From assembly GCA_013002885.1 (NCBI GenBank), contig JABDLS010000139.1, positions 1-64,000 of the forward strand: 64,000 nucleotides of DNA, read 5' to 3'. The notes beneath the pieces are model-generated. The model saw only the letters and a program-made list of their open reading frames with translations. It was not told where the DNA came from and made no database searches. Below are positions 1,504 to 62,094 of the stretch, in pieces. Source of the stretch: Gemmatimonadota bacterium (GTDB taxonomy: Bacteria; Gemmatimonadota; Gemmatimonadetes; Longimicrobiales; Gaopeijiaceae). A program made the position numbers and the translations under genes. Each line of letters begins with the position of its first letter. Within the stretch, counting starts at the first letter, position 1.

Positions 1504-2616
1504 TCAGGAGTCGGTCCGAGCCTCCATGAGCTCGATGAAGCGGTCGAAGAGATAGCGGCTATCGTGGGGTCCAGGAGCTGCCTCGGGGTGGTACTGCACG
1601 GCGAAGACCGGTTGCTCCCGGTGCTCTACACCTTCGATCGTCCCGTCGTACAGGTTCACGTGTGTCACCCGCAGATCGGGGGCCCCTGGCACCTCGTCGC
1701 CTTCGCCGCCTCGGACTGCGAAGCCGTGGTTTTGCGAGGTGATCTCCACCGTCTCCCGGCCCAGGTTCTTGACCGGGTGGTTCGCCCCGTGGTGTCCGAA
1801 AGGCAGCTTGTACGTTTCGGCGCCGAAGGCACGAGATATGAGCTGGTGGCCCAGGCATATCCCGAAGACGGGCACGCCCTTCTCGGAAAGCCGACGAATC
1901 GCATCCTGGGCCTGCTCCACCGCGGCTGGATCGCCGGGGCCGTTGGAGACGAAGAGACCGTCTGGTGCCTCCGCCAGGATCTCCTCCGACGTCGTCTCCG
2001 CCGGGATGACCGTCACCCGGCAGCCCCTTTCGGCCAGCAGTTTCGGCGAGTGCGCCTTCACCCCGAAGTCGTATGCGAAAACCGTAAACCGCTCTTCGCC
2101 TACTGCGGGAACGTCGTATCGCTCCGAGGTAGACACACCGCACGCCAGATCCAGCCCCTCCATCTGAGGCTGCGCGAGGATCTGCTCCAGGACCGAGTCG
2201 GCGTCGAGGTTCGACGGCACGATGGCGCCGCGCATTGCACCTCTCGACCGGATATGGCGGGTCAGGGCACGGGTATCGATATCGGCGATGCCCGAAATCC
2301 CGTGATCCCCGAGGTAGCCGTCGAGGTCGTCCTGGGACCTCCAATTCGAGGTGATCCGGCTCGATTCGCGGACGATGAAGCCCGACACCTGCGGGACCGG
2401 CGACTCCCGGTCCTCGTCGTTGACACCGTAGTTCCCGATGAGCGGATAGGTCATGGTCACCAACTGACCCGTGTACGAGGGGTCGGTGAGGATTTCCTGG
2501 TACCCGGTCATTGCGGTGTTGAAGACGACCTCGCCGAAAGCGGGCCCGGTGGCGCCGAGGTGGATGCCGTCGAAGCGTCGTCCGTCCTCGAGGAGGAGGT
2601 AGGCGTCGTAGTCCAG
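1504..2616 (-). CDS. carA: Carbamoyl-phosphate synthase small (glutaminase) subunit, probable CTG start
   Basis: CarA hydrolyses glutamine and channels ammonia to CarB for carbamoyl phosphate, which feeds arginine and pyrimidine synthesis. Class I glutamine amidotransferase residues are visible: the nucleophile Cys in FGICLGHQL and the His/Glu pair in VQYHPEAAPG. The first ATG (2511) falls inside the family-conserved FNTAMTGYQEILTDPSYTG block. In frame upstream the sequence still reads as CarA (LLLEDGRRFDG, then FGEVVFNT). The only usable codon after the in-frame TAG at 2632-2634 is CTG at 2616, giving 370 aa, normal for the family. A weak purine stretch lies upstream. carB is not adjacent. 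Confidence 0.9.
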   Translation of the reverse strand: MDYDAYLLLEDGRRFDGIHLGATGPAFGEVVFNTAMTGYQEILTDPSYTGQLVTMTYPLIGNYGVNDEDRESPVPQVSGFIVRESSRITSNWRSQDDLDGYLGDHGISGIADIDTRALTRHIRSRGAMRGAIVPSNLDADSVLEQILAQPQMEGLDLACGVSTSERYDVPAVGEERFTVFAYDFGVKAHSPKLLAERGCRVTVIPAETTSEEILAEAPDGLFVSNGPGDPAAVEQAQDAIRRLSEKGVPVFGICLGHQLISRAFGAETYKLPFGHHGANHPVKNLGRETVEITSQNHGFAVRGGEGDEVPGAPDLRVTHVNLYDGTIEGVEHREQPVFAVQYHPEAAPGPHDSRYLFDRFIELMEARTDS

Positions 2617-2832
2617 AAGTGACTCGCTTGTCTACGCAGGATCTCGAGCCCGACGGCGGGCTGCTGGTCCCCACACGGGCTGGCTTCGGCCGAAAGCTAC
2701 CCCGGCCCGGACCCCGGTCAACCCGTCGCGCCTGCCGACCGTACGCCTCGGCATAGCGCGTCGTTAGCTTCCTGCCGAAGCTGGAATCCTGACGCCTGAG
2801 GTACCCCCTCCCCCGAGTTGAGAGAGCCCGCT

Positions 2833-3411
2833 TTGGATACGGTCTATGTCCACGCCGACGAATCCTGCCTCGGCAACCAGCATCAGAAGAAGGCCAGCCC
2901 CGGCGGTGCCGGCGGGCTCGTGGAGGTCTGGGCCGATGGGAGCTGGAAAAGGCGTGACTATTGGCTGTCCGAAACCGACACCACGAACAACCGCATGGCC
3001 CTCCGGAGCGCCATCGCCCCTCTCCGCCTCCTGCGGCGCCGCTGCCGTGTCGTCTTCACTTCGGACAGCCAGTATCTGGTGAAGGGTATCAACGAGTGGC
3101 GTCACGGATGGAAGCGCGCCAACTGGAAGAGGAAGACCGGGGCCATCAAGAATCTCGAGCTCTGGAAAGAGCTCGACGGCCTACTCGACCGTCACGATCT
3201 CATGGCCCGGTGGGTCCGAGGGCACGATGGTCATCCGGAAAACGAGTACGTCGATTTCCTCGCCACGACAGCCGCAGCCGAGCAGAGCCGCTCGAAAGGA
3301 CTCGTCGACTCCCGCTTCAGCGACTGGCTCGACGAAGAGCGCGAAAAGGGCATGTACCTCGACTACATGGAGTTCGAGGCACCCGAGACGCGGTACCCTT
3401 ACACCACCTGA
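2833..3411 (+). CDS. RNase HI-like protein lacking the catalytic Glu
   Basis: A 192-residue protein with clear RNase HI layout. D9 lies in HADESCLGN, the core block is TTNNRMAL at 51-57, D78 is in TSDSQYLVKG, H131 in GHDGHPENE and D141 in EYVDFLA. RNase HI needs D10, E48, D70 and D134 (E. coli numbering). The equivalent of E48 is Ala56 here, and the usual DG after the first Asp is DE. It may be inactive, a binder of RNA/DNA hybrids, or may use Glu10 instead. TTG 2833 is chosen because GAGAGAG precedes it. TTG 2818 is an alternative. A C-terminal extension of about 40 residues is acidic and aromatic. Confidence 0.8.
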   Translation: MDTVYVHADESCLGNQHQKKASPGGAGGLVEVWADGSWKRRDYWLSETDTTNNRMALRSAIAPLRLLRRRCRVVFTSDSQYLVKGINEWRHGWKRANWKRKTGAIKNLELWKELDGLLDRHDLMARWVRGHDGHPENEYVDFLATTAAAEQSRSKGLVDSRFSDWLDEEREKGMYLDYMEFEAPETRYPYTT

Positions 3412-3490
3412 TAGCAGCGCTATTTCGAGGAGGAGAAACGACGGCGGCGTGGATGCATCCCATCTCGAATGCAGCGGACCTGTCCAATGG
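3411..3490 (+). repeat. 80-bp direct repeat, copy 1
   Basis: This copy starts inside the stop codon of the RNase HI-like gene. It begins with the near-palindrome ATAGCAGCGCTAT and runs to CCAATGG. A second copy starts 162 bp later with only a few mismatches (CATCTCG versus CACCTCG, TGTCC versus TGCCG). No reading frame with coding character crosses it. Function unknown. Confidence 0.85.
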
Positions 3491-3497
3491 ACTCCCA

Positions 3498-3658
3498 GCA
3501 TCCCCGTTCGGCAGGTCCGCGTCAGCACCGAGAGGCGGGAGGCGCCGCGCCGCCTAGGAACGACGACGAGGAATAGCAGCGCTATTTCGAGGAGGAGAAA
3601 CGACGGCGGCGTGGATGCATCCCACCTCGAATGCAGCGGACCTGCCGAATGGGGATGC
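3498..3658. repeat. 23-bp inverted repeat arms flanking repeat copy 2
   Basis: The arm at 3498-3520 (GCATCCCCGTTCGGCAGG...) is the reverse complement of 3636-3658 with one mismatch. The arms enclose repeat copy 2, so a transcript could form a long stem-loop of about 160 nt. The tail of repeat copy 1 can pair with the first arm less perfectly. This could be a mobile palindromic element or part of an RNA structure. Confidence 0.75.
3573..3652 (+). repeat. 80-bp direct repeat, copy 2
   Basis: Second copy of the element that begins at 3411. Its last 17 bp form the start of the right arm of the 23-bp inverted repeat. It ends immediately before the T-tract side of the minus-strand terminator at 3663-3710. 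Confidence 0.85.
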
Positions 3659-3662
3659 AAAT

Positions 3663-3710
3663 AAAAAAAGAAGGGGCCTGAGTCGCAGCGAACTGCTTCC
3701 CAGGCCCCTT
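3663..3710 (-). terminator. Rho-independent terminator of the minus-strand RNA
   Basis: On the minus strand a 10-bp stem (AAGGGGCCTG paired with CAGGCCCCTT) encloses an inner GCAG-TTCG-CTGC hairpin with a UUCG tetraloop. It is followed by CTTTTTTTATTT. This is the best intrinsic terminator in the window and faces no protein gene directly. Confidence 0.88.
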
Positions 3711-4037
3711 CCGCGGCAGAAACTCGTCGGGCTCACGAGCCCACTCCGTTCCCACTGCGCTGGCGGAAGTCCGGTTCTTACTTGGGTCCGCCTTCGTGAA
3801 GGCGGCTGAACCTGTCTTCCTTCTACTCCGTAGTGTCGCGCGGTCCGCGACCGGAGCTGCCCCGAGCTCTCAGGGCTTTTCGGCGGGGGCCAGCGACCTC
3901 CCCCGTCGGACTTCCCAGCCATCCCAAGGACCGAGTAGTCTCATCTTCGCTACACCGTCGCGCCCGAAGACTCACTTTTCAGATTCACACGAGGGATGAC
4001 CAACGCCATCGATCTCGATGAGCCGCATCTGAAACGC
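3663..4037 (-). ncRNA. Candidate structured non-coding RNA of about 375 nt
   Basis: The unit runs from a sigma70-like promoter (4044-4072) to a strong terminator. No reading frame inside has coding character. Several stems are visible: a 9-bp long-range pairing of 3765-3773 with 3907-3915, an 8-bp hairpin at 3788-3805 (CCGCCTTC/GAAGGCGG), a 6-bp hairpin at 3729-3742 (GGGCTC/GAGCCC), and an 8-bp pairing TTTCAGAT/ATCTGAAA near the 5' end. I looked for RNase P, tmRNA, SRP and 6S signatures and did not find their conserved blocks. The family is unknown. Boundaries are estimated from the promoter and terminator only. Confidence 0.5.
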
Positions 4038-4043
4038 GATGGA

Positions 4044-4072
4044 TAGATACACACTGCCAACGCCTTGAGCAA
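4044..4072 (-). promoter_or_regulatory. Sigma70-like promoter for the minus-strand RNA
   Basis: On the minus strand TTGCTC (4072-4067) is followed by exactly 17 bp and then TATCTA (4049-4044). The flanking DNA (about 4080-4250) is clearly more AT-rich than the rest of the window. Predicted transcription start is near 4037. Inference from consensus only. Confidence 0.5.
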
Positions 4073-4245
4073 GGGCAGAAGAAACAAACGTGGCCGTTGC
4101 AGGCATCACGCCATAAACCATTGCCTTACAACAATATAGATGAACTACAGACGTTTACATCACGAGGGACCGAAGCCGCGCGGGAACAGATGATTTTTCG
4201 CCCAAAGAGGTCCGTGCCGCAGCCATCATCGCGCACGACAATGTG

Positions 4246-4284
4246 AAAAAGATGAAGACCAGAAGGGCCTCATCGACGGCCCTT
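4246..4284 (-). terminator. Probable terminator downstream of lipB
   Basis: A 7-bp stem AAGGGCC/GGCCCTT (4263-4269 and 4278-4284) with an 8-nt loop is followed on the minus strand, after about 12 nt, by TTTTT (4250-4246). It sits 31 bp after the lipB stop and would end the central-carbon transcript before the RNA unit. Confidence 0.55.
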
Positions 4285-4314
4285 CGCCCCCTCCGATACG
4301 TCGATTTATGTTGT

Positions 4315-4980
4315 TCATACGACGACAATATCGCGCTCAAAGACCCTCGCGAAGTGCCGTACGAACCGATCGGCCACCTCGGACGGGTCCGGTGCCGCTC
4401 CCAGTTCTCGCTCGATAGAGGTCACCCCGCCCTCCGCGATCCCGCAGGGCACGATGGTCTCGAAGTACGACAGGTCGGCACGAACGTTCAGAGCGATGCC
4501 GTGAGAGGTGATCCAGCCAGAAGAGACCCGGATGCCGATGGCGGCCAGCTTTCCGCCTGTGGTCCACACACCGGTACCGGCATCGCTTCGCTTGGCCTCG
4601 ATTCCATAGTCGGCGGCCAGGCCAATGAGGACGGTCTCGAGATCGCGGAGGTATCGATGGAGGTCCTTCCGATCGGGCTTCAGGTCGAGGATCGGGTAGG
4701 CGACGAGTTGGCCCGGACCGTGGTACGTGACGTCGCCACCCCGCCCGGCCTCGAAAAGCTCGATTCCCAGGCGAGTCCGCTCGGCGTCGTCTACGAGTAC
4801 GTGAGCGGGATCGGAACTGGAGCCCAGGGTGATGACGTGAGGGTGCTCTAGCAGCACCAGGGTGTCGGGGATGGTCCCCGTCCTCCGCTGCCCTACCAGG
4901 TCTGCCTGTAGTTCGAGACTCTCGGCGTACGGCACCGTGCCGAGCTCGAGCACCTTCAAGGGACGCCCGAAGCCTTCCAT
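4315..4980 (-). CDS. lipB: Octanoyl-[acyl-carrier-protein]:protein N-octanoyltransferase
   Basis: LipB moves octanoyl groups from acyl-ACP to lipoyl domains, the first step of lipoate attachment. The 221-residue protein has the RGGDVTYHGPGQLV block at 80-93. It also has the catalytic pair Lys144 (in TTGGKLAAIGIR) and Cys179 (in IVPCGIAEGGVTS). Length and motifs are normal. It follows the E2 gene of a 2-oxoacid dehydrogenase on the same strand with a 24-bp gap. E2 carries a lipoyl domain, so the operon pairs the modifying enzyme with its substrate. lipA is not in the window. Confidence 0.96.
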   Translation of the reverse strand: MEGFGRPLKVLELGTVPYAESLELQADLVGQRRTGTIPDTLVLLEHPHVITLGSSSDPAHVLVDDAERTRLGIELFEAGRGGDVTYHGPGQLVAYPILDLKPDRKDLHRYLRDLETVLIGLAADYGIEAKRSDAGTGVWTTGGKLAAIGIRVSSGWITSHGIALNVRADLSYFETIVPCGIAEGGVTSIERELGAAPDPSEVADRFVRHFARVFERDIVVV

Positions 4981-5004
4981 GACGAGCGAGCCGCCCTCTG
5001 GCGG

Positions 5005-6405
5005 TCAGGCGTCCTCGGGGAAGTCCTCCAGCATCTCTTTCAGGCGCGAAAGAAAGCGCGCGGCGTCGGCACCGTCCACGATCCTGTGATCGTACCCGAG
5101 AGAGAAGAGCGAGCGCTTCCGGATGGCCATCGAGTCGGTGCCCGTGTCGGGATCGGTCACCACCACGACGCGCTTCTCGATAGCTCCCGTGCCCAGAATG
5201 GCCGACGTGCCCTTCGGGATCACCGGCATGCCCACCATCGTCCCTAGCACGCCCGGGTTGGTGATGGAGAACGTGGCGCCCTGAATCTCTGCGGGCTGGA
5301 GCTTCCGATCCCGTGCCCGGGTGGCGAGATCGACGATCTTGTTGCCGATTCCCACGAGGCCCAGATGGTCCGCGTCGTGGACGACTGGCACGATGAGCCC
5401 CGGATTGAGATCTACGGCCATGCCCAGGTTCACGTTGCCACGGTAGATGACGTTGTTCCCCGAGACCGTCGAGTTGACCGTGGGAAACTCATGGAGAACC
5501 CGAGAGACCGCCCACGCCACGAAGGCCGTGTAGCTGACCCTCGCCCCCTGGGCCTGCCAACGGGGCTTGTTTGCGGCCCTGATGCGGTCGATGACCGAGA
5601 AGTCGATCTCGATGAACGAATGCACGTGCGGAGCGATCCGTTTGGCGATCACCATGTGCTCGGCGGTGAGGCGCCGGATCTTGTCCATGGGCTCCACCTG
5701 GTCGGCGGACCGCACCGGGAACTCGGGGTGTTGGACTTCCTTGTAGAACGTCGTCCAGAGGTCCGAAGGCGCAGAAGCAGCCGCCGGCTTCTGGGCCGTC
5801 CTGGACTTGGCAGGCTGCGCCGGTGCGGCAGCTGCCTGGTCGGCGGGACCTCCGTCCTCGATGAAGTGGAGGATGTCCTGCTTGGTCACCCGGCCCGCAT
5901 GGCCCGTGCCGGGGACGGAGCCGATGTCCACGCCGTGCTCCTCGGCAATCTTCCGGACCACGGGTGTCGAGCGTGTCCGAAGTCGCTCCTCGGCCGTCTG
6001 AGCGCCGTCGGTCGAGCTCGTGGAAGAGGCCGCGGCAGTTGGCGGGGTGTCTGGTGCCTGGGCAGCGTCATCCTCGACGGCATCGTCCGTCGTCGCTTCA
6101 GCGGCCTTGGCCTCCGCCTCCGGTGTATCGGCGTCCGAGTCCACGTCGGAGACGGCAGCGCCGCCCTCGGTGTCGATGTAGGCGACGATGGTGCCGACCT
6201 CGACAGTCTCACCCTCCTCGACGGCGATCTCCACCAAAGTGCCCGACGCCGGTGCAGGAATCTCCGCATCGACCTTGTCGGTGGAGATCTCCAAGATGGG
6301 CTCGTCACGCTCGACGGCGTCGCCTACGGACTTGAGCCACTGCGAAACGGTCCCCTCGGCGATGGACTCGCCCATCTGGGGCATCGGGACGTCAATACGA
6401 GACAC
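5005..6405 (-). CDS. 2-oxoacid dehydrogenase E2 (dihydrolipoamide acyltransferase)
   Basis: A 466-residue core subunit that passes acyl groups from E1 to CoA. An N-terminal lipoyl domain (about 1-78) has the modified Lys44 in the STDKVDAEI turn. An Ala/Thr/Glu-rich linker follows, then the E1/E3-binding domain at 145-181 (RSTPVVRKIAEEHGVDI...) and the catalytic domain at about 235-460 with SLGYDHRIVDG (His440). Start is GTG. It lies directly after E1 alpha and E1 beta. The separate alpha and beta E1 chains suggest the branched-chain or pyruvate type rather than the single-chain E1 of E. coli. No E3 gene is nearby. Substrate cannot be decided from sequence alone. Confidence 0.92.
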   Translation of the reverse strand: MSRIDVPMPQMGESIAEGTVSQWLKSVGDAVERDEPILEISTDKVDAEIPAPASGTLVEIAVEEGETVEVGTIVAYIDTEGGAAVSDVDSDADTPEAEAKAAEATTDDAVEDDAAQAPDTPPTAAASSTSSTDGAQTAEERLRTRSTPVVRKIAEEHGVDIGSVPGTGHAGRVTKQDILHFIEDGGPADQAAAAPAQPAKSRTAQKPAAASAPSDLWTTFYKEVQHPEFPVRSADQVEPMDKIRRLTAEHMVIAKRIAPHVHSFIEIDFSVIDRIRAANKPRWQAQGARVSYTAFVAWAVSRVLHEFPTVNSTVSGNNVIYRGNVNLGMAVDLNPGLIVPVVHDADHLGLVGIGNKIVDLATRARDRKLQPAEIQGATFSITNPGVLGTMVGMPVIPKGTSAILGTGAIEKRVVVVTDPDTGTDSMAIRKRSLFSLGYDHRIVDGADAARFLSRLKEMLEDFPEDA

Positions 6406-6452
6406 GCTCGATCACTCCGTTTTCTTGTTGAGGAGGCCGACTTCTCGGCCTT

Positions 6453-7490
6453 CTAGTACGCAGCCAGGTAGCGAGCCGCCTTCACGACATCGTCCACCTG
6501 AGGTAGAAAGTAATCCTCCAGCGACCCTGAGTAAGGCACCGGAGCGTCGATGGCCGTCACGCGGAGCATCGGCGCGTCGAGCCACTCGAAGGCCTTCTCG
6601 CTCACCCGCATGGCGATTTCGCCGGCGATTCCACCCGTTCGGGTGTCTTCGTGGACGATGAGGAGGCGATTGGTCTTCTTGACACTATCGACGATTGCGT
6701 CGTCGTCCATCGGCAGGAGCGTGCGAAGGTCGATGATGTCCACCGACAGGCCATCCTCGGCGTCGAGGATATCGGCTGCCTCCACGCTCTTGTGGACCAT
6801 GGCGCCATAGGTGACCACGGTGAGGTCCTGCCCCTCCCGGACTGTACGGGCCTTGCCCAGTGGCACGACGAAGTCTTCGTCGGGCAGTACTTCCCGGAGG
6901 GCCGGAGCCCGATAGAGGCCTTTGTGCTCTTCGAACAGAACTGGATTGTCGTCGCGGATGGCCGCCTTCAGGAGGCCCTTGGCGTCGTATGCGGTGCTCG
7001 GATAGACGATCTTGAGCCCCGGGGTGTGGAAGAATGCCATCTCCACGTTCTGGGAGTGAAAGGGCCCGCCGCGGTTGCCGCCGCCCACAGGACCGCGGAT
7101 GACAAGAGGCATCGGCCCCGCACCCCGATACAGCGAAGTCGCGATGTAGTTGGTGATGACGTCGTATGCCGGGGAGATGAAGTCCATGAACTGGATTTCC
7201 ACCACCGGCCGGAGGCCCATGTGGGCGGCGCCGGCAGCCGCTCCGGTAAAACCACCCTCCGCGATGGGGGTGTCGATGACCCGGTTCGCACCGAAATGCT
7301 CGAGGAATCCGCGGGTGACCTTGAAGGCTCCGCCGTAGACGCCGATGTCCTCGCCGAGGAGGAAGACCGACTCGTCGGCGGTCATCTCCTCGAACAAGGC
7401 CTCACTGATGGCCTCCAGCAGGGTGACGGCCTCGCCACGCGAGGTTTTTGTGAGGTGTTCGGGGGCTGACGTCTCCATGGTCGTCGTCAT
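6453..7490 (-). CDS. 2-oxoacid dehydrogenase E1 beta subunit
   Basis: A 345-residue transketolase-like pyrimidine domain that completes the ThDP site of the E1 heterotetramer. Recognisable blocks are RVIDTPIAEGGFTGAAAGAA, GPVGGGNRGGPFHSQNVE and HTPGLKIVYPSTAYDAKGLL, which resemble branched-chain and pyruvate E1 beta. The reading frame is open further upstream, but MTTTMETS at 7490 is chosen. It gives a 4-bp ATGA overlap with the E1 alpha stop, and upstream codons do not look like protein. Expected to act with the adjacent E1 alpha and E2. Confidence 0.93.
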   Translation of the reverse strand: MTTTMETSAPEHLTKTSRGEAVTLLEAISEALFEEMTADESVFLLGEDIGVYGGAFKVTRGFLEHFGANRVIDTPIAEGGFTGAAAGAAHMGLRPVVEIQFMDFISPAYDVITNYIATSLYRGAGPMPLVIRGPVGGGNRGGPFHSQNVEMAFFHTPGLKIVYPSTAYDAKGLLKAAIRDDNPVLFEEHKGLYRAPALREVLPDEDFVVPLGKARTVREGQDLTVVTYGAMVHKSVEAADILDAEDGLSVDIIDLRTLLPMDDDAIVDSVKKTNRLLIVHEDTRTGGIAGEIAMRVSEKAFEWLDAPMLRVTAIDAPVPYSGSLEDYFLPQVDDVVKAARYLAAY

Positions 7491-8542: not shown

Positions 8543-8586
8543 GAAGACCCGATGGCATGAAGACCGCGCGGTGGCGGATCAAGGGG

Positions 8587-8958: not shown

Positions 8959-9015
8959 CGGAACCGTATTCCCTTCAGAATGAGTCGTTAAACGTCGATG
9001 AGGCTCGAAACAGTG

Positions 9016-9774: not shown

Positions 9775-9823
9775 GCGTACTCCTCGTTGTGCTGCGTCTA
9801 TTGAGATGGATGGTGACGCGTAA

Positions 9824-11038: not shown

Positions 11039-11045
11039 TGGTCGA

Positions 11046-13835: not shown

Positions 13836-14927
<1,092 letters not shown>

Positions 14928-20083: not shown

Positions 20084-21580
20084 TCAGCCGTCGGGTCGGC
20101 GCTGGACGGCGATCTCGCCGCCCGTCCCTTCGGGGCGGGCATAGACGATCTCGTAGCCACTCGCCTCCCCCTCGCCAGGAAGCGTCTCTCCGGCCGATGT
20201 CGCCGTCGACGGCCCCTGACCGTCTCCTCGAGCGTGGAGTCTACGGAGTACTCGGATGGCCTGGGGGAAAAGGCGTGGGTGGTGCGCGGGGCTGGGGGGC
20301 GCATCCTCCACACCCAGTCGGTCGAGTTCAGCGGCCACCGCCATCTGATTGCCCAACGTCGGTCCGTAGTGCAGAGACCGGGTCCCGCCGTTGACGTGAA
20401 GCCAGACCGCCAGGCCCACGAGGAAAGCGGCCATGGTGGCCGCCTGGCACACCAGCACCCGCCGGGCCCAGAGGCGACTTACCAGATCACTCATTCCCCA
20501 CCACCAGAGGGCGAAGAAGGCGATCCACACCCCGCTGTAGTAGTGAGGATGCTCGACCAGCCGCTTACCGTTGGCGACGATGACGAAGAAGACCAGGGTC
20601 AGCGCGACCACCCCTGCCACCGCGGCTTCGGCATCGCCGGTCTCCTTGGCGTCCTTGCCATCTGCGGCCCCTTTCGCCTCCCACACGTCGCCCTGCCTAA
20701 GCACGCGGTTCAGGAGAACGGCCCCCCACGCCCCCACGCCGTAGCTCACCGACGAGATGACGACGAGAGCCGGGGCAAAGCCAGCAGCGGTCCAGTCGCC
20801 AATGACGTAGTCGAAGCCTCTCAAGGTGAAGATCCGAAAGCCATCGAGGGCGAAGAGGAGGGCTCGGGGCGACGGCGACCACAGCAGATCGGTGGCCGGC
20901 CCAGCGGAGACGGTACGTAGATAGGGCGCGAGCGCCGCCGCCGCCGCCGCGCCCAACCCACCAGCGGCGAAGGCGAAGCGACGGTCGTGGGCGAGCCGTC
21001 TGCGCTGGCTCCAGACCAGATGGACGAGCACCGCACCCACCAAGGGAGTCGTCATCAGGTGGGTCATGACGCAGAGGACGGCGAACAGCGCCGTGCCGAC
21101 GAGCCATCTCGTCCGCTTCGAGGCATGAAAGGCGGCATACGTCGCCACGAGCATGGCCGTGAAGGGAATGGCGAAGCTGTTATCCCAGAGGTCCCGGGCG
21201 TAGAACCAGAGGTAGGGGCTCAGGAATGCGAACGCCCCCAGAGGCGTGGACAGGCGAGGGACACTGCGGCCGAGGAGGAGCAGGCCGTACCCGGTGAGTA
21301 GCGTGACGAAGACGACCTTCACCAACGCCACGATCCTGAGATCCGAGGTCAGAAGCAGCATGGCCTGATAGAACCAGGTCGGAGCGGCACCATACGCGGC
21401 GCCGCGCGTCCCCTGGAGCCCAGCCATTGCCACTTCCTTCGACTCGAGGGCGTCCAAAGCCCCCTGGATCAACAAGGGTTCGTCCGCGATGAAGGGCACG
21501 TCGCCGGGGAAGAGGAGGCGTACGACCCCCAATGCCATCAGTAGGGCGACGGCCGCCCGGGTATCGGGATCGTCTCTCAG
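20084..21580 (-). CDS. Polytopic membrane protein, GT39/PMT-like, probable CTG start
   Basis: About ten hydrophobic helices can be read. A short loop near the start (FPGDVPFIADEPLLIQGALD) contains an Asp-Glu pair like the first periplasmic loop of GT-C glycosyltransferases. By that resemblance it may add sugars from lipid carriers, but no family signature is decisive. ATG 21538 would cut the first helix after about ten residues. CTG 21580 restores it (RAAVALLMALGVVRLLF) and gives a 4-bp CTGA overlap with the glycosylase stop, like the other couplings here. About 75 C-terminal residues are soluble. Confidence 0.65.
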   Translation of the reverse strand: MRDDPDTRAAVALLMALGVVRLLFPGDVPFIADEPLLIQGALDALESKEVAMAGLQGTRGAAYGAAPTWFYQAMLLLTSDLRIVALVKVVFVTLLTGYGLLLLGRSVPRLSTPLGAFAFLSPYLWFYARDLWDNSFAIPFTAMLVATYAAFHASKRTRWLVGTALFAVLCVMTHLMTTPLVGAVLVHLVWSQRRRLAHDRRFAFAAGGLGAAAAAALAPYLRTVSAGPATDLLWSPSPRALLFALDGFRIFTLRGFDYVIGDWTAAGFAPALVVISSVSYGVGAWGAVLLNRVLRQGDVWEAKGAADGKDAKETGDAEAAVAGVVALTLVFFVIVANGKRLVEHPHYYSGVWIAFFALWWWGMSDLVSRLWARRVLVCQAATMAAFLVGLAVWLHVNGGTRSLHYGPTLGNQMAVAAELDRLGVEDAPPSPAHHPRLFPQAIRVLRRLHARGDGQGPSTATSAGETLPGEGEASGYEIVYARPEGTGGEIAVQRRPDG

Positions 21581-35223: not shown

Positions 35224-35730
35224 CTACATGGGTTCGACCAGGGCGACCAACCGTCGACCCTGGATCGTGTTCGAGCGCTGCTCCACGCGTCCGATGTCGG
35301 ACAACTCGTCGAGCATGCGGTCGAGGGTCTTCACGCCGACCTCGGCTTGCCTGAGTTCGCGGCCTCGGAAGCGGAGAACAACGCGCACGACGTTACCCTC
35401 CTCGAGGAACCTGCGGGCCCGCTTCAGTTTCACGTCGAAATCGTGATCGTCGGTGCGGGGCCGGAGCTGAACTTCCTTGAGCTCCACCGTGTGTTGGTTC
35501 TTCTTCGCTTCTCTCTTGGCCTTCTGGCGCTCGTAGCGCTCCTTGCCCCAGTCCATCATCCGGACGACGGGTGGTCTGGCCTGGGCCGCTACTTCAACGA
35601 GATCGAGCTCGGCTTCGGCGGCCTTTTCCTTCGCCGCCTGGAGTGAGACGACGCCGATCTGCTCTCCGTCTTCGCCAACCAATCGGACGGGGCTGATGCG
35701 GATGTCTTCGTTGACCCTTGGATTGTCGAT
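35224..35730 (-). CDS. infC: Translation initiation factor IF-3, probable ATC start
   Basis: IF-3 binds the 30S subunit and checks the start codon. The N-domain reads RLVGEDGEQIGVVSLQAAKE and PPVVRMMDWGKERYERQKA. The C-domain reads LKEVQLRPRTDDHDFDVKL and VVRVVLRFRGRE. GTG 35784 would add 18 residues unlike IF-3 and has no ribosome-binding site. ATC 35730 has GAGGAG exactly 8 nt upstream (35739-35744) and gives 168 aa starting (M)DNPRVNEDIRI, normal for the family. E. coli infC uses AUU, and a rare start allows IF-3 to repress itself, so ATC makes biological sense. rpmI and rplT do not follow. Confidence 0.9.
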   Translation of the reverse strand: MDNPRVNEDIRISPVRLVGEDGEQIGVVSLQAAKEKAAEAELDLVEVAAQARPPVVRMMDWGKERYERQKAKREAKKNQHTVELKEVQLRPRTDDHDFDVKLKRARRFLEEGNVVRVVLRFRGRELRQAEVGVKTLDRMLDELSDIGRVEQRSNTIQGRRLVALVEPM

Positions 35731-35842
35731 GGGTTCTTCTCCTCGAGTGATGGAGTGTCGTTTCGAAGGACTCTGAAGATACACGAATCACGCTACCGCG
35801 TGACCACGTGCACTCGGCGACGTCCCGTTGCCCCGGCGCGTA

Positions 35843-38187: not shown

Positions 38188-39699
38188 GTGATTCGGGAGC
38201 CGGGGATCGTCGTCCCTGAACCTTCTAGAACGTCGTCCCTTTTCGTCATGGCCAAGCCCGTTTCCAGCGCGCAGGGTGTTCCCACCCACCAGGGACGTGG
38301 GTGGGCTCATGAGAGCAGGAACCCGACCCTCCCCTCCCTTGATTGGCTCGCCACTACTTCGAGCGACATCGAATGGGCGACACGTCAGAAATCCCGGGCA
38401 ACGACTTCGACGTCTCCCCACCGCTCCTCCAGGAGCTCGACCCAGAGTCGCCGAGCCCTCTGCCTCTGGCTCCCGACCTTCGAGCTCCGCCTCGAACTCG
38501 TCCGATCCCCCGAACTCGACAGCACCTCCGTCGCCCTCCTTTCACCGGGAGAGAGCACGCGGCGCACCGTCTGGCAGGTTTCGGAGCGGGCTCACGCCTC
38601 AGGCGTGAGACCAGGCCAGCTCGTCTCCCAGGCGGTCTCGCTCTGCACCTCTCTTACCCTCCTGGAGCCCGATCCGGCTCACTACGACGCCGCCGTCGAC
38701 ACCATGTTGGAGGTCCTCACCGAGATCACGCCTGTGGTCGAGCCCGCCGGTCGGGGGAGAGTCTTCCTGGGCATGGATGGTCTGGAGCGTCTCTTCGGCT
38801 CTCCGCACCGACAGATACGGCGGGCCCTGCAGTCTCTCTTCCGGGTCTTTCCCTCCCCTCTCGTCGCCGCCACACGAGCGGGCATGGCTCCTGGCAAATT
38901 CGGGGCATGGGTAGCAGCCGCTTCCGCTCGTTCCGGGTCTCCGGTCGTCATTCCCGAAAAAGGCCTCCGGGACTTCTTCGCCCGCTGCCCTGTCGGTGCT
39001 CTCCCCGTCAACCCCCTGGTCATCGGTCGTCTGGAGCGCCTGGGCATCCGGACCCTGGGCGAACTCCGGCGCTTCCCCGAGCCGTCCCTGGTCGCCCAGT
39101 TCGGGGAGGACGGCAAAAACGCCCTCGCCTGGGCGACGGCCCGGCGCATCGACCCGGTACGCCCACAGCACCGTCCCCGTCCCATCCGTGTCTCCCTCGA
39201 GTTTCCCAATCCCGTGGGCATGGTGGGCACACTTCATGGCGCTCTTCATCGACTCGCCGAGCGTGCTCTCGCACGGCCGGCGCGAAGAGGACGCAGCGTG
39301 ACGGGCGTTCGCATGGGAGCGCACCTCGAAGGAGGAGGCTCCTGGTTCGTCGAAACGGTACTGCGCGAGCCCACCTCCGATCGTGAGCGCATCGCGGCTC
39401 CCCTTCGGTCGAAGATGGAAATCTCGCCTCCCCCGAAAGCTGTGGAGACCCTCATCCTCGAGCTCACCGATTTCGGAGCGGCGAGCGCCCAGACGGGGCT
39501 GTTCGATCGGAAGATCGAGTCGGGACGAGCGACATCTTCCCTGGACTTCAATGAAGGTGAAGTGCCTGTCACGCTGAAAGATGCGGTCCAAGAGCTAAAG
39601 TTGCGTCTAGGTCACTCTCCCCTCTACCGCGTCGTCGAGGTCGATCCCTGGTCGCGGATTCCCGAGCGGCGACACGCCCTCCTCAGTTTCGACCCCTGA
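38188..39699 (+). CDS. imuB: ImuB-like Y-family polymerase paralogue (translesion accessory)
   Basis: The body from about residue 90 matches the Y-family layout. The usual acidic metal site is gone: the first motif reads LCLWLPTFELRLELV and the second GRVFLGMDGLERLFGSP. This is how ImuB differs from active DinB/UmuC polymerases. It also has NPLVIGRLERLGIRTLGELR (helix-hairpin-helix). ImuB bridges the clamp, ImuA and DnaE2 during damage-induced mutagenesis. imuA and dnaE2 are not present here. The first 88 residues are Ser/Arg-rich and may be non-coding. GTG 38188 and ATG 38248 are the usable starts, and the true start is unclear. Followed by a DUF6504-like gene and recX. Confidence 0.82.
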   Translation: MIREPGIVVPEPSRTSSLFVMAKPVSSAQGVPTHQGRGWAHESRNPTLPSLDWLATTSSDIEWATRQKSRATTSTSPHRSSRSSTQSRRALCLWLPTFELRLELVRSPELDSTSVALLSPGESTRRTVWQVSERAHASGVRPGQLVSQAVSLCTSLTLLEPDPAHYDAAVDTMLEVLTEITPVVEPAGRGRVFLGMDGLERLFGSPHRQIRRALQSLFRVFPSPLVAATRAGMAPGKFGAWVAAASARSGSPVVIPEKGLRDFFARCPVGALPVNPLVIGRLERLGIRTLGELRRFPEPSLVAQFGEDGKNALAWATARRIDPVRPQHRPRPIRVSLEFPNPVGMVGTLHGALHRLAERALARPARRGRSVTGVRMGAHLEGGGSWFVETVLREPTSDRERIAAPLRSKMEISPPPKAVETLILELTDFGAASAQTGLFDRKIESGRATSSLDFNEGEVPVTLKDAVQELKLRLGHSPLYRVVEVDPWSRIPERRHALLSFDP

Positions 39700-53844: not shown

Positions 53845-53923
53845 CGTCCACGGCGCAACGGTCCGCCCCTCGCACGAACGCCCCTCAAATCAGCGACGCG
53901 GCCGGCAGAGGTAGCGCGGGCGG

Positions 53924-53957
53924 GGTTTGCGACACCGCCGCCGCGGTGTCGCAAACC
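53924..53957. terminator. 15-bp perfect hairpin between convergent genes
   Basis: GGTTTGCGACACCGC (53924-53938) pairs with 53943-53957 around a 4-nt loop. It lies between the EamA stop (53844) and the end of the minus-strand DUF1854 gene (53960). No T-tract is present, so it may be a bidirectional barrier rather than a classical intrinsic terminator. Confidence 0.6.
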
Positions 53958-53959
53958 TC

Positions 53960-54463: not shown

Positions 54464-54528
54464 TCAGGGGCTGTTTGCCAACAAGCCCCGGTTCTCGTCA
54501 TTCCTCACTCTGATACCGCGCCTCAGCC

Positions 54529-56847: not shown

Positions 56848-56893
56848 GATTCGTCTCGTTTGGTTCGGGCCCTCCGGCCCGATGCATGGGAAC

Positions 56894-56939
56894 AAAAAAA
56901 TCCGGGCTTCCCTGACCGCTTGGGGCGGCGGAAGACCGG
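56894..56939 (-). terminator. Intrinsic terminator within the ABC/DUF1854 leader
   Basis: On the minus strand a 10-bp stem with one mismatch (CCGGTCTTCC with GGAAGCCCGG, loop of 18 nt) is followed by T7. It lies 47 bp before the exporter ATG with no gene ending just upstream on this strand. It could be an attenuator in the leader or a terminator of an unseen transcript. Confidence 0.6.
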
Positions 56940-56986
56940 ATACTCTGCCTCTACTAGTTTTCTAGTTAGTTCAGGTATCAGCCTCC

Positions 56987-57005
56987 CGCCGATCAGAGAT
57001 CGGCG
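56987..57005. other. Perfect 8-bp hairpin upstream of the ABC leader
   Basis: CGCCGATC-AGA-GATCGGCG, a tight hairpin with a 3-nt loop, precedes on the minus strand a short ACTAG/CTAGT hairpin (about 56953-56967) and then the terminator. Together they could form a folded leader. The order hairpin, hairpin, terminator resembles a riboswitch arrangement, but I recognise no known aptamer. Confidence 0.45.
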
Positions 57006-57295
57006 CCTGGACCCACCGGCTCGCGAGGTACGACGCGCACGCACGCACCCGAACACGGTCCGCCATGAAGGCGACCGCGCCGAAGCCGGTTTCGTGTGTG
57101 AACAGTTGTCGCATCTCTCGGGTCCTCGAGAGTCGAATCGAAAGGGGACAGGGCACCCGTGCCGTCAGGATGCGCCTTCCCCGCGTTCCTGGTAGATACG
57201 TACGGGTCGGGCCTCGGTCAAGTTTCCGACGGATTTCGAGCTGCGGGGCACTACGTTGGAAGGACGAGTGCGAGAACGAACCCGGAGGAAGACGG

Positions 57296-58600
57296 ATGCG
57301 TCCGGCGAGCGAGGCACGGCCCTGGTTGGCACAGGAGTCCTGGTCCAACGGATCGGTCACCTCGGAGGGCCATAGGCAGCTTTTTGCGCACTGGTTCGGC
57401 GCCATCGTCTGGAATGCGATGGCCGTCCCCATCGTGCTCATCCTGGTCGGAGAGGGCGGGAGTGATCTCGTTCCCTTCCTGCGGTGGGTGCTGGCCGGCT
57501 TCGTCGCCCTGGGCGTGCTCATCCTCTTCAACGCCGTCGTCTACTCCGCACGTATCGCCCGCTTCCGGAACCTACGGCTCGAACTCGACCCCTTCCCCGG
57601 TTGCATCGGCGGCCATGTCGGCGGCGCCGTCGAGATCCCCGTTCGGCCAGACGACCAGACGCGCGTCCGAGCCACGCTCCACTGCATCCGTTCGTACATA
57701 CATGGAAGTGGCGAGAACCGGTCCCGGCGCGACGACGTCGTCTGGTCGGCGGAGGTGGCGCCCGAGGTGGCGCGCTCGGCGTCCGGGAGCCGACTCCGTT
57801 TCGGCTTCGACGTCCCCGACGTGGAGCAGCCGACCAGCGAGGAACGGGAGGGCGACCACCACTACTGGGCCATACACCTGGCCGCCGAGCTTCCGGGAGC
57901 CGACCTGGACCAGACGTTCGTGGTCCCCGTCTACCGGATCGATCCTCCTCTGGAGGCCTCTCACCCGTTCATCCCACCACCGGACGATCCGCGCGAGCTA
58001 TCCCGACACGGGATCGATGTCGAACCGACGGCCCGAGGCGTGCGAATCGTTTACCGCCGCGGCCGCTTCGGTGGGGCACCCTTCGGCCTGATCCCCTTCG
58101 GTGCCCTGTTCGTGGCCTCGGGTGGCTTCGTGTTCAGCCAGACCACCGGGGCCTTCGGACTCGGCATCGGCACGGCTTTCGGCGGCATCTTCCTGGTCGC
58201 GTTCAGCCTGGTGGGCCTGCTCCTGTTGGCGGTTGGGATCTCGATGCTCGTATCGTCCATGACCGTGGAGATCCAGGGCGGAATCGTCCGCTCGCGTCGC
58301 TCCTGGATCTTCTTCAGTTCGACCCAGGAGGTCCCGGTACGCGACCTCGAACGGATCGACGCCAAGGTCACCATGCAGTCGGGACAGGGGAGCGGCGCCA
58401 GGACCGGATACACCCTCCGAGGTACGACCCTGAACGGAGATCGCATACCCCTGGGGGACGGGATCCGCGGAGCCTACTTGGTCGACCGCGTCGCGGCGGT
58501 CTTGGAAGCGGCCACCGGCCTGCGGGTCGAATCGGGAGTCCGGAGGCGGCTCGGCGGACCGCCGGGGGAAAGCCTCGAGGCGAGTAGTCACGAGGAATGA
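57296..58600 (+). CDS. Unrecognised integral membrane protein, four predicted helices
   Basis: A 434-residue protein. Two helices near the N-terminus (about 34-52 and 60-78, WFGAIVWNAMAVPIVLILVG and LRWVLAGFVALGVLILFNAV) frame a soluble domain of about 165 residues. That domain has beta-like repeats and a His/Asp/Glu-rich patch (REGDHHYWAIHLAAELPGAD). Two further helices (about 260-305) follow, then a C-terminal soluble domain of about 125 residues. The start ATG 57296 follows GGAGGAAG. I cannot assign a family. The layout resembles DUF3592-like proteins only loosely. It is divergent from the ABC exporter and precedes the ADOP permease. Confidence 0.65.
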   Translation: MRPASEARPWLAQESWSNGSVTSEGHRQLFAHWFGAIVWNAMAVPIVLILVGEGGSDLVPFLRWVLAGFVALGVLILFNAVVYSARIARFRNLRLELDPFPGCIGGHVGGAVEIPVRPDDQTRVRATLHCIRSYIHGSGENRSRRDDVVWSAEVAPEVARSASGSRLRFGFDVPDVEQPTSEEREGDHHYWAIHLAAELPGADLDQTFVVPVYRIDPPLEASHPFIPPPDDPRELSRHGIDVEPTARGVRIVYRRGRFGGAPFGLIPFGALFVASGGFVFSQTTGAFGLGIGTAFGGIFLVAFSLVGLLLLAVGISMLVSSMTVEIQGGIVRSRRSWIFFSSTQEVPVRDLERIDAKVTMQSGQGSGARTGYTLRGTTLNGDRIPLGDGIRGAYLVDRVAAVLEAATGLRVESGVRRRLGGPPGESLEASSHEE

Positions 58601-58692
58601 GATCCGAAACCCCCGGCTGGCCACTCGACGTACTCGTCGTCGACCGATATCGTCTCTGACCTCGGCCGCGACCTACGAGTCAAGGAGGCTCC

Positions 58693-61119
58693 CTGCGGTA
58701 CGCGCTTCGCTCCCTCGCACGTTCGCCCGGATTCTCCGCGCTGGTAGTGCTGACGCTCGCACTGGGCATTGGAGCCAACACCGCCGTGTTCAGTGTGCTC
58801 CGAGGCGTGCTTCTTCGCCCGCTGCCGCACGACGACGGCGACCGGCTCATGTATGTCCGCCAGTCGGCGGAGCTTATCGGACTCGACAACGCATTGTTCA
58901 GCGTCCCCGAGATCGTCGACTACCGTGAGGCTTCGACGTCTCTCACGGGCTTTGCCGAGTTCTCCCAGATGCAGTTCAACATGCTCGGTGGCGAGCGCCC
59001 GGTGCAGGTTGAAGCAGGGATCGTCACTGGGAACTACTTCGAGGTGATGGGACTCGAAGCGGTCATCGGCCGCACCCTGACGCCTGACGACGACGGCCCC
59101 GAAGCCGACCCTGTCATGATGCTCACCTGGGACTACTGGCAGAACCAGTTCGGCGGCGATCCTGGCGTACTGGGCCAGGTGCTTCGAATGAACGGCCGGT
59201 CGGTGACTGTGGTGGGTGTTGCGGAGCCCGCGCCACCCTTCCCGGGCGACACCGACATCCTCGTGAACATGGTGACGAGCCCCCACCATCTGGACGCCAG
59301 CATGGTGCACGGCCGCTCCCACCGCATGACCGAGGTCTTCGCACGGCTGGCCCCGGGGGCAACGGTCGAGGGGGCCCAGGCCGAAGTCGATGCAATCGCC
59401 GCGCGGGTCCATGCGGACCACCGTGATGCGTACGATCCGGGGGCTGGCTATGAGCTGAGGGTCACTCCCCTGAGGGACGCGTTGACCGCCGAGGCTCGGC
59501 AGACGCTTTGGCTCCTCATGGCGATAGCCGCCCTCGTCCTTCTGACCGCGTGCGCCAACGTGGGTAACCTGGTGCTCGCCCGCTTCCTGGAGCGGGAGCG
59601 GGAAATCACCATGCGGTGGGCTCTCGGTGCAGGCCGTGCCCGACTGCGACGTCTCCTCCTCGGCGAGACCGCCATCCTCGCCGTGGCCGGTGCGGGCCTC
59701 GGCCTTGTCTTCGCATACGGCGGCCTCGACCTATTGGTGGGCTTCGCCCGTCGCTATACCGCCCGGGCCACCGAGATCCAAATCGACGGTACGGTCCTGG
59801 CCTTTACTCTCTTCGTCGCCACCGGATCGGCTTTGGCGTTCGCGTTTGCCCCGTCGTTGCGCTCCTCCGCCGGGGCGGGTCTCGCCCTCCTCCGGACCGG
59901 ATCCAAGGCGTCCAGCACCGGACAACGGCTCCAACGCGGCCTCATCGTGGCCCAGGTCGCAGCCGCCGTCACGGTGCTCACGGCAGGCGGTCTCCTTACC
60001 CGAACGCTTCTGGAGCTCAACGCCGTCGACACGGGCGTTCAGGTAGAGAACACCATCACCATGCAGGTGCCCGCCGATCAGGGCGGCGGCACCGCCATGG
60101 AGATCCTCCGCATGCAGGAAGGCATGCGCGATCGCATCGCCTCACTCCCCGGGGTGGAAGCCGTAGGCGTCGGGCTCAACGTGCCCCTCCGCCCCTCCGG
60201 CGTGCTCCTGGAAATCAAGGCCGAAGGCTACCCCGCCAGGCCCGGCACACCGCCGTTCCTCGCCGAGTACCGGACCGCCACGCCCCAGTACTTCGACGCC
60301 GCCGGCATGCACATCGTCGCCGGCCGTGGCATCGAGTCCACCGACGAGGCAGGAGGCGCTCCCGTGGCGGTCCTCAACGAAGCCCTCGCGGGTCGACTCT
60401 TCGGTGAGGACGATCCCCTGGGACAGCGCGTCGCGTGGACCGGAGACGTGCTCCAGTTCATCGGCATGGAAGGTGGTTGGATGAGGGTCGTCGGCGTGGT
60501 GAACAACACCAGCGACGACGGGCCCATGGAGGCGCCCCCGCCTGCCGTTTATCAGCCCCTTGCCCAGAACGAGATGGGCTACTTCCCGGGCGGCTTCGTG
60601 ATCCGGGCGAATGACGCGGCCTCCCTCGTACCCGACGCCGAACGCATCTTCATGGAGATGGCGCCCAACAGCCCCGTCGAGGACGTGGCCACTCTCCAAC
60701 AGATCCGCGACGAAACCATCGCCTCACAGCGACTCAACGCCTTCCTGGTGGGGGCCTTCGGACTCCTCGCACTCGTCATCGCCGCGGTCGGAATCGCCGG
60801 GGTGTTGGCGTTTCTCGTCACTCGCCGCACCACTGAGATCGGGATTCGAATGAGCCTTGGGGCCGCAAAGCGAGAGGTCGTGGGGATGGTGGTGGCCGAT
60901 GGTGGTCGCCTTCTCGCCGCCGGTGTCGGTGCCGGGTTGGTGGGCTCCCTCGTGGTAGCACGACTATTGGAAGGTCTCCTTTTCGGGATACCGCCCGTGG
61001 ACCCGGTGACCTTCGCGGTGGTTTCGGCACTCATGGTGGGTGTGGGGCTTGTGGCGTGCGCGGTGCCTGCCCGGCGGGCGGCCTCGGTCGACCCGTTGGT
61101 AGCGATGCGGGAGGAGTAG
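58693..61119 (+). CDS. ADOP/MacB-like FtsX-domain permease, probable CTG start
   Basis: An 808-residue permease. The N-terminal helix block reads RYALRSLARSPGFSALVVLT and continues LALGIGANTAVFSVLRGV, the known start of acidobacterial/gemmatimonad permeases of this family. Two MacB periplasmic domains alternate with FtsX blocks (LLTACANVGNLVLARFLERE, EITMRWALGAGRARLRRLLL, and EIGIRMSLGAAKREVVGMVV). GTG 58747 would delete the first helix. In frame upstream there is a stop at 58657 and then only CTG 58693, preceded by AAGGAGG 4 nt away. The ATPase partner is not present, so the system is probably encoded elsewhere or not energised by ABC. Confidence 0.88.
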   Translation: MRYALRSLARSPGFSALVVLTLALGIGANTAVFSVLRGVLLRPLPHDDGDRLMYVRQSAELIGLDNALFSVPEIVDYREASTSLTGFAEFSQMQFNMLGGERPVQVEAGIVTGNYFEVMGLEAVIGRTLTPDDDGPEADPVMMLTWDYWQNQFGGDPGVLGQVLRMNGRSVTVVGVAEPAPPFPGDTDILVNMVTSPHHLDASMVHGRSHRMTEVFARLAPGATVEGAQAEVDAIAARVHADHRDAYDPGAGYELRVTPLRDALTAEARQTLWLLMAIAALVLLTACANVGNLVLARFLEREREITMRWALGAGRARLRRLLLGETAILAVAGAGLGLVFAYGGLDLLVGFARRYTARATEIQIDGTVLAFTLFVATGSALAFAFAPSLRSSAGAGLALLRTGSKASSTGQRLQRGLIVAQVAAAVTVLTAGGLLTRTLLELNAVDTGVQVENTITMQVPADQGGGTAMEILRMQEGMRDRIASLPGVEAVGVGLNVPLRPSGVLLEIKAEGYPARPGTPPFLAEYRTATPQYFDAAGMHIVAGRGIESTDEAGGAPVAVLNEALAGRLFGEDDPLGQRVAWTGDVLQFIGMEGGWMRVVGVVNNTSDDGPMEAPPPAVYQPLAQNEMGYFPGGFVIRANDAASLVPDAERIFMEMAPNSPVEDVATLQQIRDETIASQRLNAFLVGAFGLLALVIAAVGIAGVLAFLVTRRTTEIGIRMSLGAAKREVVGMVVADGGRLLAAGVGAGLVGSLVVARLLEGLLFGIPPVDPVTFAVVSALMVGVGLVACAVPARRAASVDPLVAMREE

Positions 61120-61122
61120 CAC

Positions 61123-62094
61123 ATCAACTCCGCTGTCTGGCAGACCCTCCGTACCGCCGGCGGCTGCGCACTCGTTCTGCTGGGCGCCCTGGCTCTACTC
61201 GTCCTCCTACCCATCGTATACGACCCAGGTGTGCTCGCCGCTTTCACTGCCCTGGTGGGCGCCATCTTTGGCGGCCTTTGGTTCGCACCCCGGGTGATTG
61301 TGGCGCTGAAATGGCATCAGCCCATTCGGCTCATGTCCGAGCCCCCTCCCGCACACTGGGCCGCCATCGTGCGTGACCGCGTGCCCATCTCCAAGAAGCT
61401 TCGTTCAGAGGACTTCGAGCGCCTCCTCAAGCTGATCCAGGTCTTCCTGGCCAAGAAGAACATCGAAGGGGCCGGTGGCTTCGACGTGACGGAGGAGGCA
61501 GCGATCACCATCGCCGCCCAGGCATGCCTCCTCTTGATCTGGCGGAACACGGGAATGTACCCGGGCCTCAGGACGATCATCGTCTATCCCAGCGCCACGA
61601 TTCCGAAGATGCTCGACTCCAGCACGGGTGGCTTCGAGGAATCACTCTCCCCCATCGTCGGACAGTCCTGGGGTGCCGGGGTCGTGATCCTGTCTTGGGA
61701 CAGTGCCGACTTCGGCGCGTTCGATCCTCGGGACGGTAAGAACGTCGTCCTTCATGAGTTCGCGCACCAACTCGACCAGGAGACGGGTGAAGCCGACGGG
61801 ATGCCCGTGGGCCTACCTCTCTCGGCGGTGAAGCCTTGGGCCGAGGTGATGGAAAAGCACTTCCGACTACTGAGGGCAGCCGATCGGAAGGGCCGGAAGA
61901 CGGTGCTCGACGGGTACGGCGCCACGAACTACGCCGAGTTCTTCGCCGTGGCCACCGAGGCCTTCTTCGAGAAGCCTGAACGCTTGAGACACACGAAGCC
62001 GGACCTATACGGCTTGCTCACCGACTTCTACGGTGTGGACCCAGCCGATGGGATGCGAGGGATGGGGGATGGACTGGGTATGGAAGATGAGTGA
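61123..62094 (+). CDS. MtfA-like zinc peptidase with TM anchor, probable ATC start
   Basis: A 323-residue protein. The peptidase domain has zinc motif NVVLHEFAHQLDQETGEADG (HExxH) and a third ligand in NYAEFFAVATEAFFEKPE. E. coli MtfA (M90) binds Mlc and has peptidase activity. Family similarity is judged by the HEFAHQLD motif and the tail. GTG 61231 would lose the first helix. In frame after the ADOP stop (TAG 61117-61119), codons encode a TM helix (CALVLLGALALLVLLPIV) with no ATG, GTG or TTG. ATC 61123 has GGGAGGAG 6 nt upstream. The ADOP stop lies in the same frame. Confidence 0.82.
   Translation: MNSAVWQTLRTAGGCALVLLGALALLVLLPIVYDPGVLAAFTALVGAIFGGLWFAPRVIVALKWHQPIRLMSEPPPAHWAAIVRDRVPISKKLRSEDFERLLKLIQVFLAKKNIEGAGGFDVTEEAAITIAAQACLLLIWRNTGMYPGLRTIIVYPSATIPKMLDSSTGGFEESLSPIVGQSWGAGVVILSWDSADFGAFDPRDGKNVVLHEFAHQLDQETGEADGMPVGLPLSAVKPWAEVMEKHFRLLRAADRKGRKTVLDGYGATNYAEFFAVATEAFFEKPERLRHTKPDLYGLLTDFYGVDPADGMRGMGDGLGMEDE

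Follow-up and report, generated by a model that had tools for sequence, protein, structure and literature searches.

Very few non-canonical start codons have been characterized in bacteria, according to the part of PMC5472188 drawn on here. The same part describes infC, the gene for initiation factor IF3, as an autoregulated gene whose start codon is ATT (E. coli) or ATC (Streptomyces), and notes that IF3 control works in other bacteria with non-canonical infC starts; it also describes the GTC start of sigR in Streptomyces, which is repressed by IF3 so that the IF3 level sets dosage, as shown by experiment (PMC5472188). Prokaryotic switches to CUG are rare in the portion of PMC5622118 used here, which counts 2 of 61,358 ancestral AUG codons, 1 of 5,080 GUG and 1 of 2,468 UUG. 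Here we analyse a window of 64,000 nucleotides from a Gemmatimonadota bacterium (contig C70 of genome G000; 4.0 Mb, 156 contigs, 89% complete), in which carA, encoding the small subunit of carbamoyl-phosphate synthase, appears to start at CTG and a paralogue of infC at ATC.

A preliminary description of the window had assigned CTG or ATC starts to five genes (these two, a membrane protein, an ADOP-family permease and an mtfA-like peptidase) and had read them as unusual start-codon tolerance of the lineage or relaxed IF3 discrimination. All five codons are indeed present, in the places and frames it gave. Very probably, however, the five are a mixture and not one lineage trait, with carA possessing a true, stable CUG start and infC belonging to a known class. 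This explanation is built on conservation, codon pattern, Shine–Dalgarno placement and a missing CTG signal in sampled genes, all of which were observed directly. Throughout, canonical start codons are ATG, GTG and TTG.

The described systems resemble the window in different respects. Like infC with AUU or AUC (PMC5472188, in part), the window's infC has a non-canonical start kept across its lineage, and looks to be of that class; carA differs in being metabolic and in using CUG, and it cannot be autoregulated in this way. It is closer to sigR as a gene other than infC whose non-canonical start is conserved in a bacterial group, although codon and gene differ and the sigR case is experimental where that of carA CUG is comparative (PMC5472188, in part). 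The UUG of carA in E. coli and others is a weak NTG start of the same gene at the same column, but UUG is a usual start codon and CUG is not. The rare switches from AUG, GUG or UUG to CUG tabulated in PMC5622118 resemble our ADOP case; they are isolated between close relatives, as far as that excerpt goes, whereas the carA CUG is kept across eight genera, and their rarity makes such long retention notable.

The carA start codon across the family

Homologues were sought in 59 genomes first and then in 121 genomes of the window's family (f1), with f2 and f3 as sister families. carA matched in 59/59 of the former (mostly full-length, with some fragments or weak matches) and at E ≤ 1e-100 in 110/121 of the latter. 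Start regions were read in 106 f1 genomes (of the 110, G094 and G095 were not fetched, and G109 and G121 lack the N-terminus) and in 19 of the 24 sister-family genomes searched (unread: G037, G039, G041, G042 and G053).

The aligned column of the window's CTG (column 0) holds CTG in 32 of the 106 family genomes, spread over eight genera: g1 (11/12), g13 (2/2), g20 (2/2), g5 (3/6), g55 (5/5), g56 (5/5), g57 (3/3) and g7 (1/1). G099, of g5, has its CTG one codon on from column 0; counting it, the 36 genomes read from these genera give 33 CTG, one GTG (G009), one TTG (G096) and one ATG (G100), with no synonymous leucine codon. Within the eight genera, which were chosen for holding CTG, the column thus varies solely among possible start codons. 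The next three leucine columns of the 32 CTG genomes behave otherwise, using CTG in 10, 11 and 5 of 32; at those frequencies, CTG in 8/8 genera would arise by chance with a probability of about 3e-5, an approximate value that takes no account of kinship or of how the genera were chosen. GGAG, GAGG or AGGA lies upstream of the CTG in 26/32, mostly 5–8 bases away. In the rest of the family other codons occupy column 0, and most carA genes start upstream of it, some codons away, at ATG, GTG or TTG. Side by side with these, the carA genes of G080 and G081 (L354 and L355; genus g41) have no ATG, GTG or TTG from −14 to +3 codons of the aligned start, and possibly possess longer N-termini or another odd start.

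The carA CTG is therefore well supported, on comparative grounds, as a real conserved start codon at a homologous column. In a CarA tree of 45 proteins with whole loci (of 125 genomes; G099 scored as CTG), all 28 CTG rows fall inside one 32-row group (support 80/92) whose other rows are three GTG and one ATG. A single origin of the CTG with few returns to other NTG codons would most simply account for this, a history that the tree does not by itself prove.

Several points weigh against so firm a reading. The window's own carA has a Shine–Dalgarno match of just 3 bases, and the same 4-mers occur in 16/32 genomes in a control stretch inside carA (positions not tallied). Selecting genera for CTG makes the 33/36 partly circular, and three of the eight are represented by one or two genomes only. 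The CarA clade is moderately supported, and the tree lacks six of the genomes read from these genera (G092, G096, G098 and the g57 genomes G138, G139 and G140). G027, outside the eight genera, has CTC at the column and GTG five codons upstream. Translation of the CUG is a prediction from sequence comparison.

Weak starts of carA seem to be older than the CTG clade. In the 19 sister-family genomes the column holds TTG in 10, GTG in 7 and ATG in 1, with one further ATG four codons upstream; conserved genes of the lineage start with ATG in 388 cases, GTG in 138 and TTG in 25, and since sister-family carA differs from them (Fisher P 1e-8 for TTG, 2e-7 for ATG) it looks to have had weak starts earlier. 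A weak start may even be a general carA feature across bacteria. Among 80 carA loci taken from other phyla (L073–L152; a set rich in Gammaproteobacteria that contains L073 from the window's family), the sole canonical codon near the column is TTG in 32, ATG in 15 and GTG in 14, with several canonical codons in 16 and none in 3. In E. coli REL606 the annotated start of carA is TTG (NC_012967.1).

The infC paralogue and start codons across the lineage

Genome G000 has two IF3 genes, the window copy and one on contig C103 (L001, G000:C103:6422-6946), which are 52% identical; a 31-row IF3 tree splits them at 100/99, with unsure rooting. In 30 loci of the gene (each from a different genome, out of 57 in which a match was found; the C103 copy of G000 is not counted) we looked for the best Shine–Dalgarno-placed start among ATG, GTG, TTG, CTG, ATC, ATT and ATA. 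It was ATC in 20, ATT in 8 and ATA in 2, accounting for 30/30. In four of the 30 a canonical codon also occurs up to 12 codons upstream, behind a weaker Shine–Dalgarno match, and two have a CTG with an equal match beside the ATT. The window's gene encodes an IF3 and has an AUH start preceded by a Shine–Dalgarno motif, the sequence features of the known class, and assignment of its ATC to the already-known IF3 autoregulation type is supported by this comparison. The preliminary description was right in this start but not in placing it upstream of every canonical codon, as there is an in-frame GTG at 35784. By analogy with other species (PMC5472188, in part), the window infC would be a putative target of self-repression by IF3. 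Relatives of the window-type IF3 are present in G005, G017, G021, G027, G028, G029, G030 and G033, with more distant ones in both sister families, and likewise favour ATC, ATT or ATA starts.

Two IF3 genes, together with well-supported odd starts in carA and infC and a likely one in the ADOP permease, are what might be expected if the whole lineage tolerated CTG and ATC starts, for instance through relaxed IF3 discrimination, the five cases being samples of it. We consider this very unlikely. A census of 1264 predicted genes from parts of nine genomes looked, near the coding front, at in-frame codons that follow a 5-base Shine–Dalgarno match, and set their numbers against an expectation derived from the other in-frame codons. 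ATG (163 observed, 59.5 expected), GTG (96, 54.0) and TTG (30, 18.4) are enriched 2.74-, 1.78- and 1.63-fold, while CTG, at 52 against 52.1, shows no enrichment; ATT (15, 15.8) is flat. The counts have an uneven base rate, in that AAG (60, 32.0) and ACG (64, 45.7) rise too, and the CTG and ATC counts presumably include carA and infC themselves, which were not subtracted. With a 6-base match, CTG stands at 10 against 12.6 expected (11.0 out of frame) and ATC at 19 against 13.2 (19.7 out of frame). Pulling towards tolerance are the 5-base count for ATC (67 against 54.6, P 0.06, near significance) and that of CTG against its own out-of-frame number (52 against 38.4), which leans towards an excess; these data would be compatible with one or two percent of genes starting unnoticed at CTG or ATC.

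Four-base stop overlaps tell a similar story. Those of the NTGA type occur in register 125 times for A, 107 for G and 18 for T, against 14, 30 and 18 in the other two registers; for C the figures are 58 and 116, which is background. The preliminary description had counted nearby Shine–Dalgarno sites and such overlaps as support for most of its starts, and this stands for AAGGAGG before the ADOP gene and GAGGAG before infC but lapses for the CTGA overlap. Even a Shine–Dalgarno motif is weak evidence here when taken alone, because 5.6% of the non-canonical in-frame codons close to the start of genes follow a 5-base match.

Orthologues give a consistent picture. Across 114 groups, 551 of 585 members have ATG, GTG or TTG at, or at most five codons from, the consensus start; 20 have a canonical codon elsewhere in range and 14 have none, and by eye these 14 are mostly truncated or in wrong frames, while in two of them a canonical codon follows after a few codons. 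This test is blind to genes in which every member has a non-canonical start, and did not flag carA or infC; counts of coding signal, Shine–Dalgarno matches and overlaps were therefore added. Coding signal extends more than 6 nats beyond the best canonical start in 29 of the 1264 genes, of which 5 are carA and 6 infC. The other 18, judged only by their translations, comprise shadow frames, two ImuB-like genes, what we take to be a frameshift gene like prfB and a disrupted groEL, and unexplained ones. In a frame we presume to be groEL-like (L177, G000:C103:21530-21991), the frame is cut and conserved residues continue upstream of the first canonical start as far as the stop; either a real frameshift or an assembly error would produce this. 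carB, elsewhere in the genome, has a fixed canonical start in 22 of 23 loci read (GTG 15, ATG 5, TTG 2), the 23rd running off its end; 30 loci had been fetched, 7 of them fragments or part-length matches that were left out.

An initiator tRNA variant with the anticodon stem changed from G–C to C–G is described in the part of PMC11497404 consulted, and would mark relaxed start selection. No altered stem was seen here: the ordinary stem GGGCTCATAACCC occurs once, in a tRNA-Met gene (other tRNAs not surveyed). The carA CTG is found also where a single IF3 match was detected, as in G001, G003 and G006. Lineage-wide CTG/ATC tolerance, or relaxed IF3 discrimination, is not supported, because there is no CTG excess, CTGA overlaps are at background, orthologues and carB are canonical and the tRNA stem is ordinary; with it falls the central claim of the preliminary description. 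The refuting comparison that the description had set, ATG or GTG at the aligned positions of relatives, came out differently from gene to gene, with CTG kept in carA and ATG found in the ADOP relative G045.

Three approaches contributed little to the above. Early homology flags were swamped by shadow frames from genes upstream and by fortuitous alignment of upstream sequence, and served only as lists for inspection by eye. An unconstrained 64-codon expectation-maximization model of starts was dropped when it took codon bias at gene fronts for start types and gave senseless results in G017 and G034. The 16S tail pattern had one-mismatch matches only and was not used.

Other readings of the carA start

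One alternative is that the CTG is an internal leucine codon and that translation begins further upstream, at a canonical or other codon. Ten of the 32 CTG genomes offer a possible start for this, an in-frame ATG or GTG lying within nine codons upstream in 6 and at 13 codons in 4 more, and carA of these genomes could start there. In the window, however, the reading frame is closed six codons upstream by a TAG, and no canonical codon lies between it and the CTG. A search for conserved upstream residues in the CTG genomes returned none except GAG at −3 (19/32), which reads as Shine–Dalgarno, and the replacement of CTG by GTG, TTG and ATG alone within the eight genera is hard to reconcile with an internal codon. 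We regard an upstream start as highly improbable.

A start at the internal ATG would have the merit of using the first canonical codon after the in-frame TAG (2511), leaving the conserved stretch above it untranslated or vestigial. That stretch keeps both protein conservation and codon bias: conserved CarA residues span from the CTG to the ATG at 2509–2511, and the coding signal is 0.66 bits per codon against −0.47 and −0.73 in the other frames. It also belongs to PF00988, which covers CarA residues 7–132, and in columns 6–13 residues are near-fixed while codons vary. The preliminary description's claim of family-conserved residues upstream of the first canonical codon thus stands for carA, and an internal start is scarcely credible.

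Sequencing or assembly errors turning ATG into CTG or ATC are as hard to credit, given that carA and infC look alike in many separate assemblies, carA including the single-contig genomes G017 and G097; the preliminary description had discounted error for all five genes, a view that holds for these two, while the ADOP CTG is one base from the ATG at the aligned codon of G045.

Remaining genes of the window and a possible role of the carA start

Coordinates of the features are collected below.

Features of the window
Feature	Position	Strand	Basis or comment
carA, carbamoyl-phosphate synthase small subunit	1504..2616	-	370 codons from CTG; PF00988 from residue 7, TIGR01368 5-365
carA CTG start codon, conserved in 8 genera	2614..2616	-	aligned column 0 across family genomes
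In-frame TAG, sixth codon upstream of carA CTG	2632..2634	-	sequence
First canonical codon (ATG) in carA	2509..2511	-	35 codons inside conserved protein
infC paralogue, second IF3 of G000	35224..35730	-	from ATC; PF05198, PF00707, TIGR00168 (198 bits)
ATC start codon of infC paralogue	35728..35730	-	infC loci comparison
GAGGAG Shine–Dalgarno motif of infC paralogue	35739..35744	-	sequence
ADOP-family permease	58693..61119	+	from CTG; TIGR03434 805 bits, residues 1-808 on profile 5-803
CTG at homologous start of ADOP permease	58693..58695	+	G045 (63% identity) has ATG at aligned codon
AAGGAGG Shine–Dalgarno motif, ends four bases before ADOP CTG	58682..58688	+	sequence
MtfA-like M90 peptidase	61123..62094	+	from ATC, start undecided; PF06167 residues 64-303
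GGGAGGAG motif before mtfA-like ATC	61109..61116	+	sequence
Alternative GTG start of mtfA-like gene	61231..61233	+	GTG within ~2 residues in homologue G024, by eye
Orphan membrane protein	20084..21580	-	from CTG, start undecided; no family
Alternative ATG start of membrane protein, 14 codons downstream of CTG	21536..21538	-	sequence

The ADOP permease is the sole one of 30 loci fetched (of many more matches) without a canonical codon at the column or within 16 codons upstream; the other 29 have one. Its closest homologue is that of G045, and because G045 has ATG at the aligned codon and AAGGAGG lies four bases upstream, the CTG is likely a sporadic ATG-to-CTG change in one genome. Set against this, coding signal is not positive in the 18-codon extension, at −0.05 bits per codon (−0.73 and −0.18 in the other frames).

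For the mtfA-like gene, the choice between ATC (61123–61125, +) and the GTG at 61231 is undecided. Codon use between the two is coding-like (0.11 bits per codon against −0.36 and −0.82), the M90 domain begins downstream of both, and of matches in eight relatives the furthest-reaching, in G024, has its GTG about two residues from GTG 61231, judged by eye. The CTG of the membrane protein (21578–21580, −) is without independent support either way: the 14-codon extension carries a weak coding signal (0.09 bits per codon), and its CTGA stop overlap is no evidence because such overlaps occur at the background rate. Family conservation upstream of its first canonical codon cannot be claimed for this protein, which has no match at E ≤ 0.001 in 58 relatives and none in Pfam or NCBIfam. 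Its gene stands behind a uracil-DNA glycosylase gene. An ImuB-like polymerase gene (38242–39699, +; PF00817) was considered as a sixth odd start and rejected, as an upstream in-frame ATG is shared with G032; its N-terminal extension has a QGVPTHxGxGWA motif that is also shared with G032.

How the carA CUG might work can be outlined from these comparisons. fMet-tRNA (formylmethionyl-tRNA) would initiate at the CUG, positioned by the upstream GGAG-type Shine–Dalgarno motif and pairing at a low rate despite the first-base mismatch, and the first residue of CarA would be methionine. A single origin from UUG or GUG, in the ancestor of a clade within one Gemmatimonadota family, is the simplest history, and the codon would since have mostly been kept. 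A brake on CarA synthesis is a likely consequence, since this is a weak start in a gene with weak starts in many bacteria; IF3 may modulate it, as at the sigR GTC, so that CarA would be held low and low CarA selected. Whether the weak carA start is such a selected brake across bacteria, fixed here as a CUG under IF3 control with CarA following the IF3 level, we put forward tentatively, as a possible but somewhat doubtful extension by analogy.

No CUG start of a Gemmatimonad was found in the open-access literature, an absence that is not proof, and nothing was used from that literature on carA UUG/TTG starts or on a second infC. carA has the same non-canonical codon at a homologous start column in several species, as infC has non-canonical starts in 30/30 loci, and its CTG would thereby join an already-known kind, genes whose non-canonical start codon has been conserved in evolution. 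Several odd starts in one window need not imply a lineage trait. Gene finders limited to ATG, GTG and TTG would lose 35 CarA residues here or misplace the start. The CUG of this pyrimidine/arginine pathway gene, retained in eight genera, gives a comparative handle on whether there is selection for weak starts, and a clear test gene.

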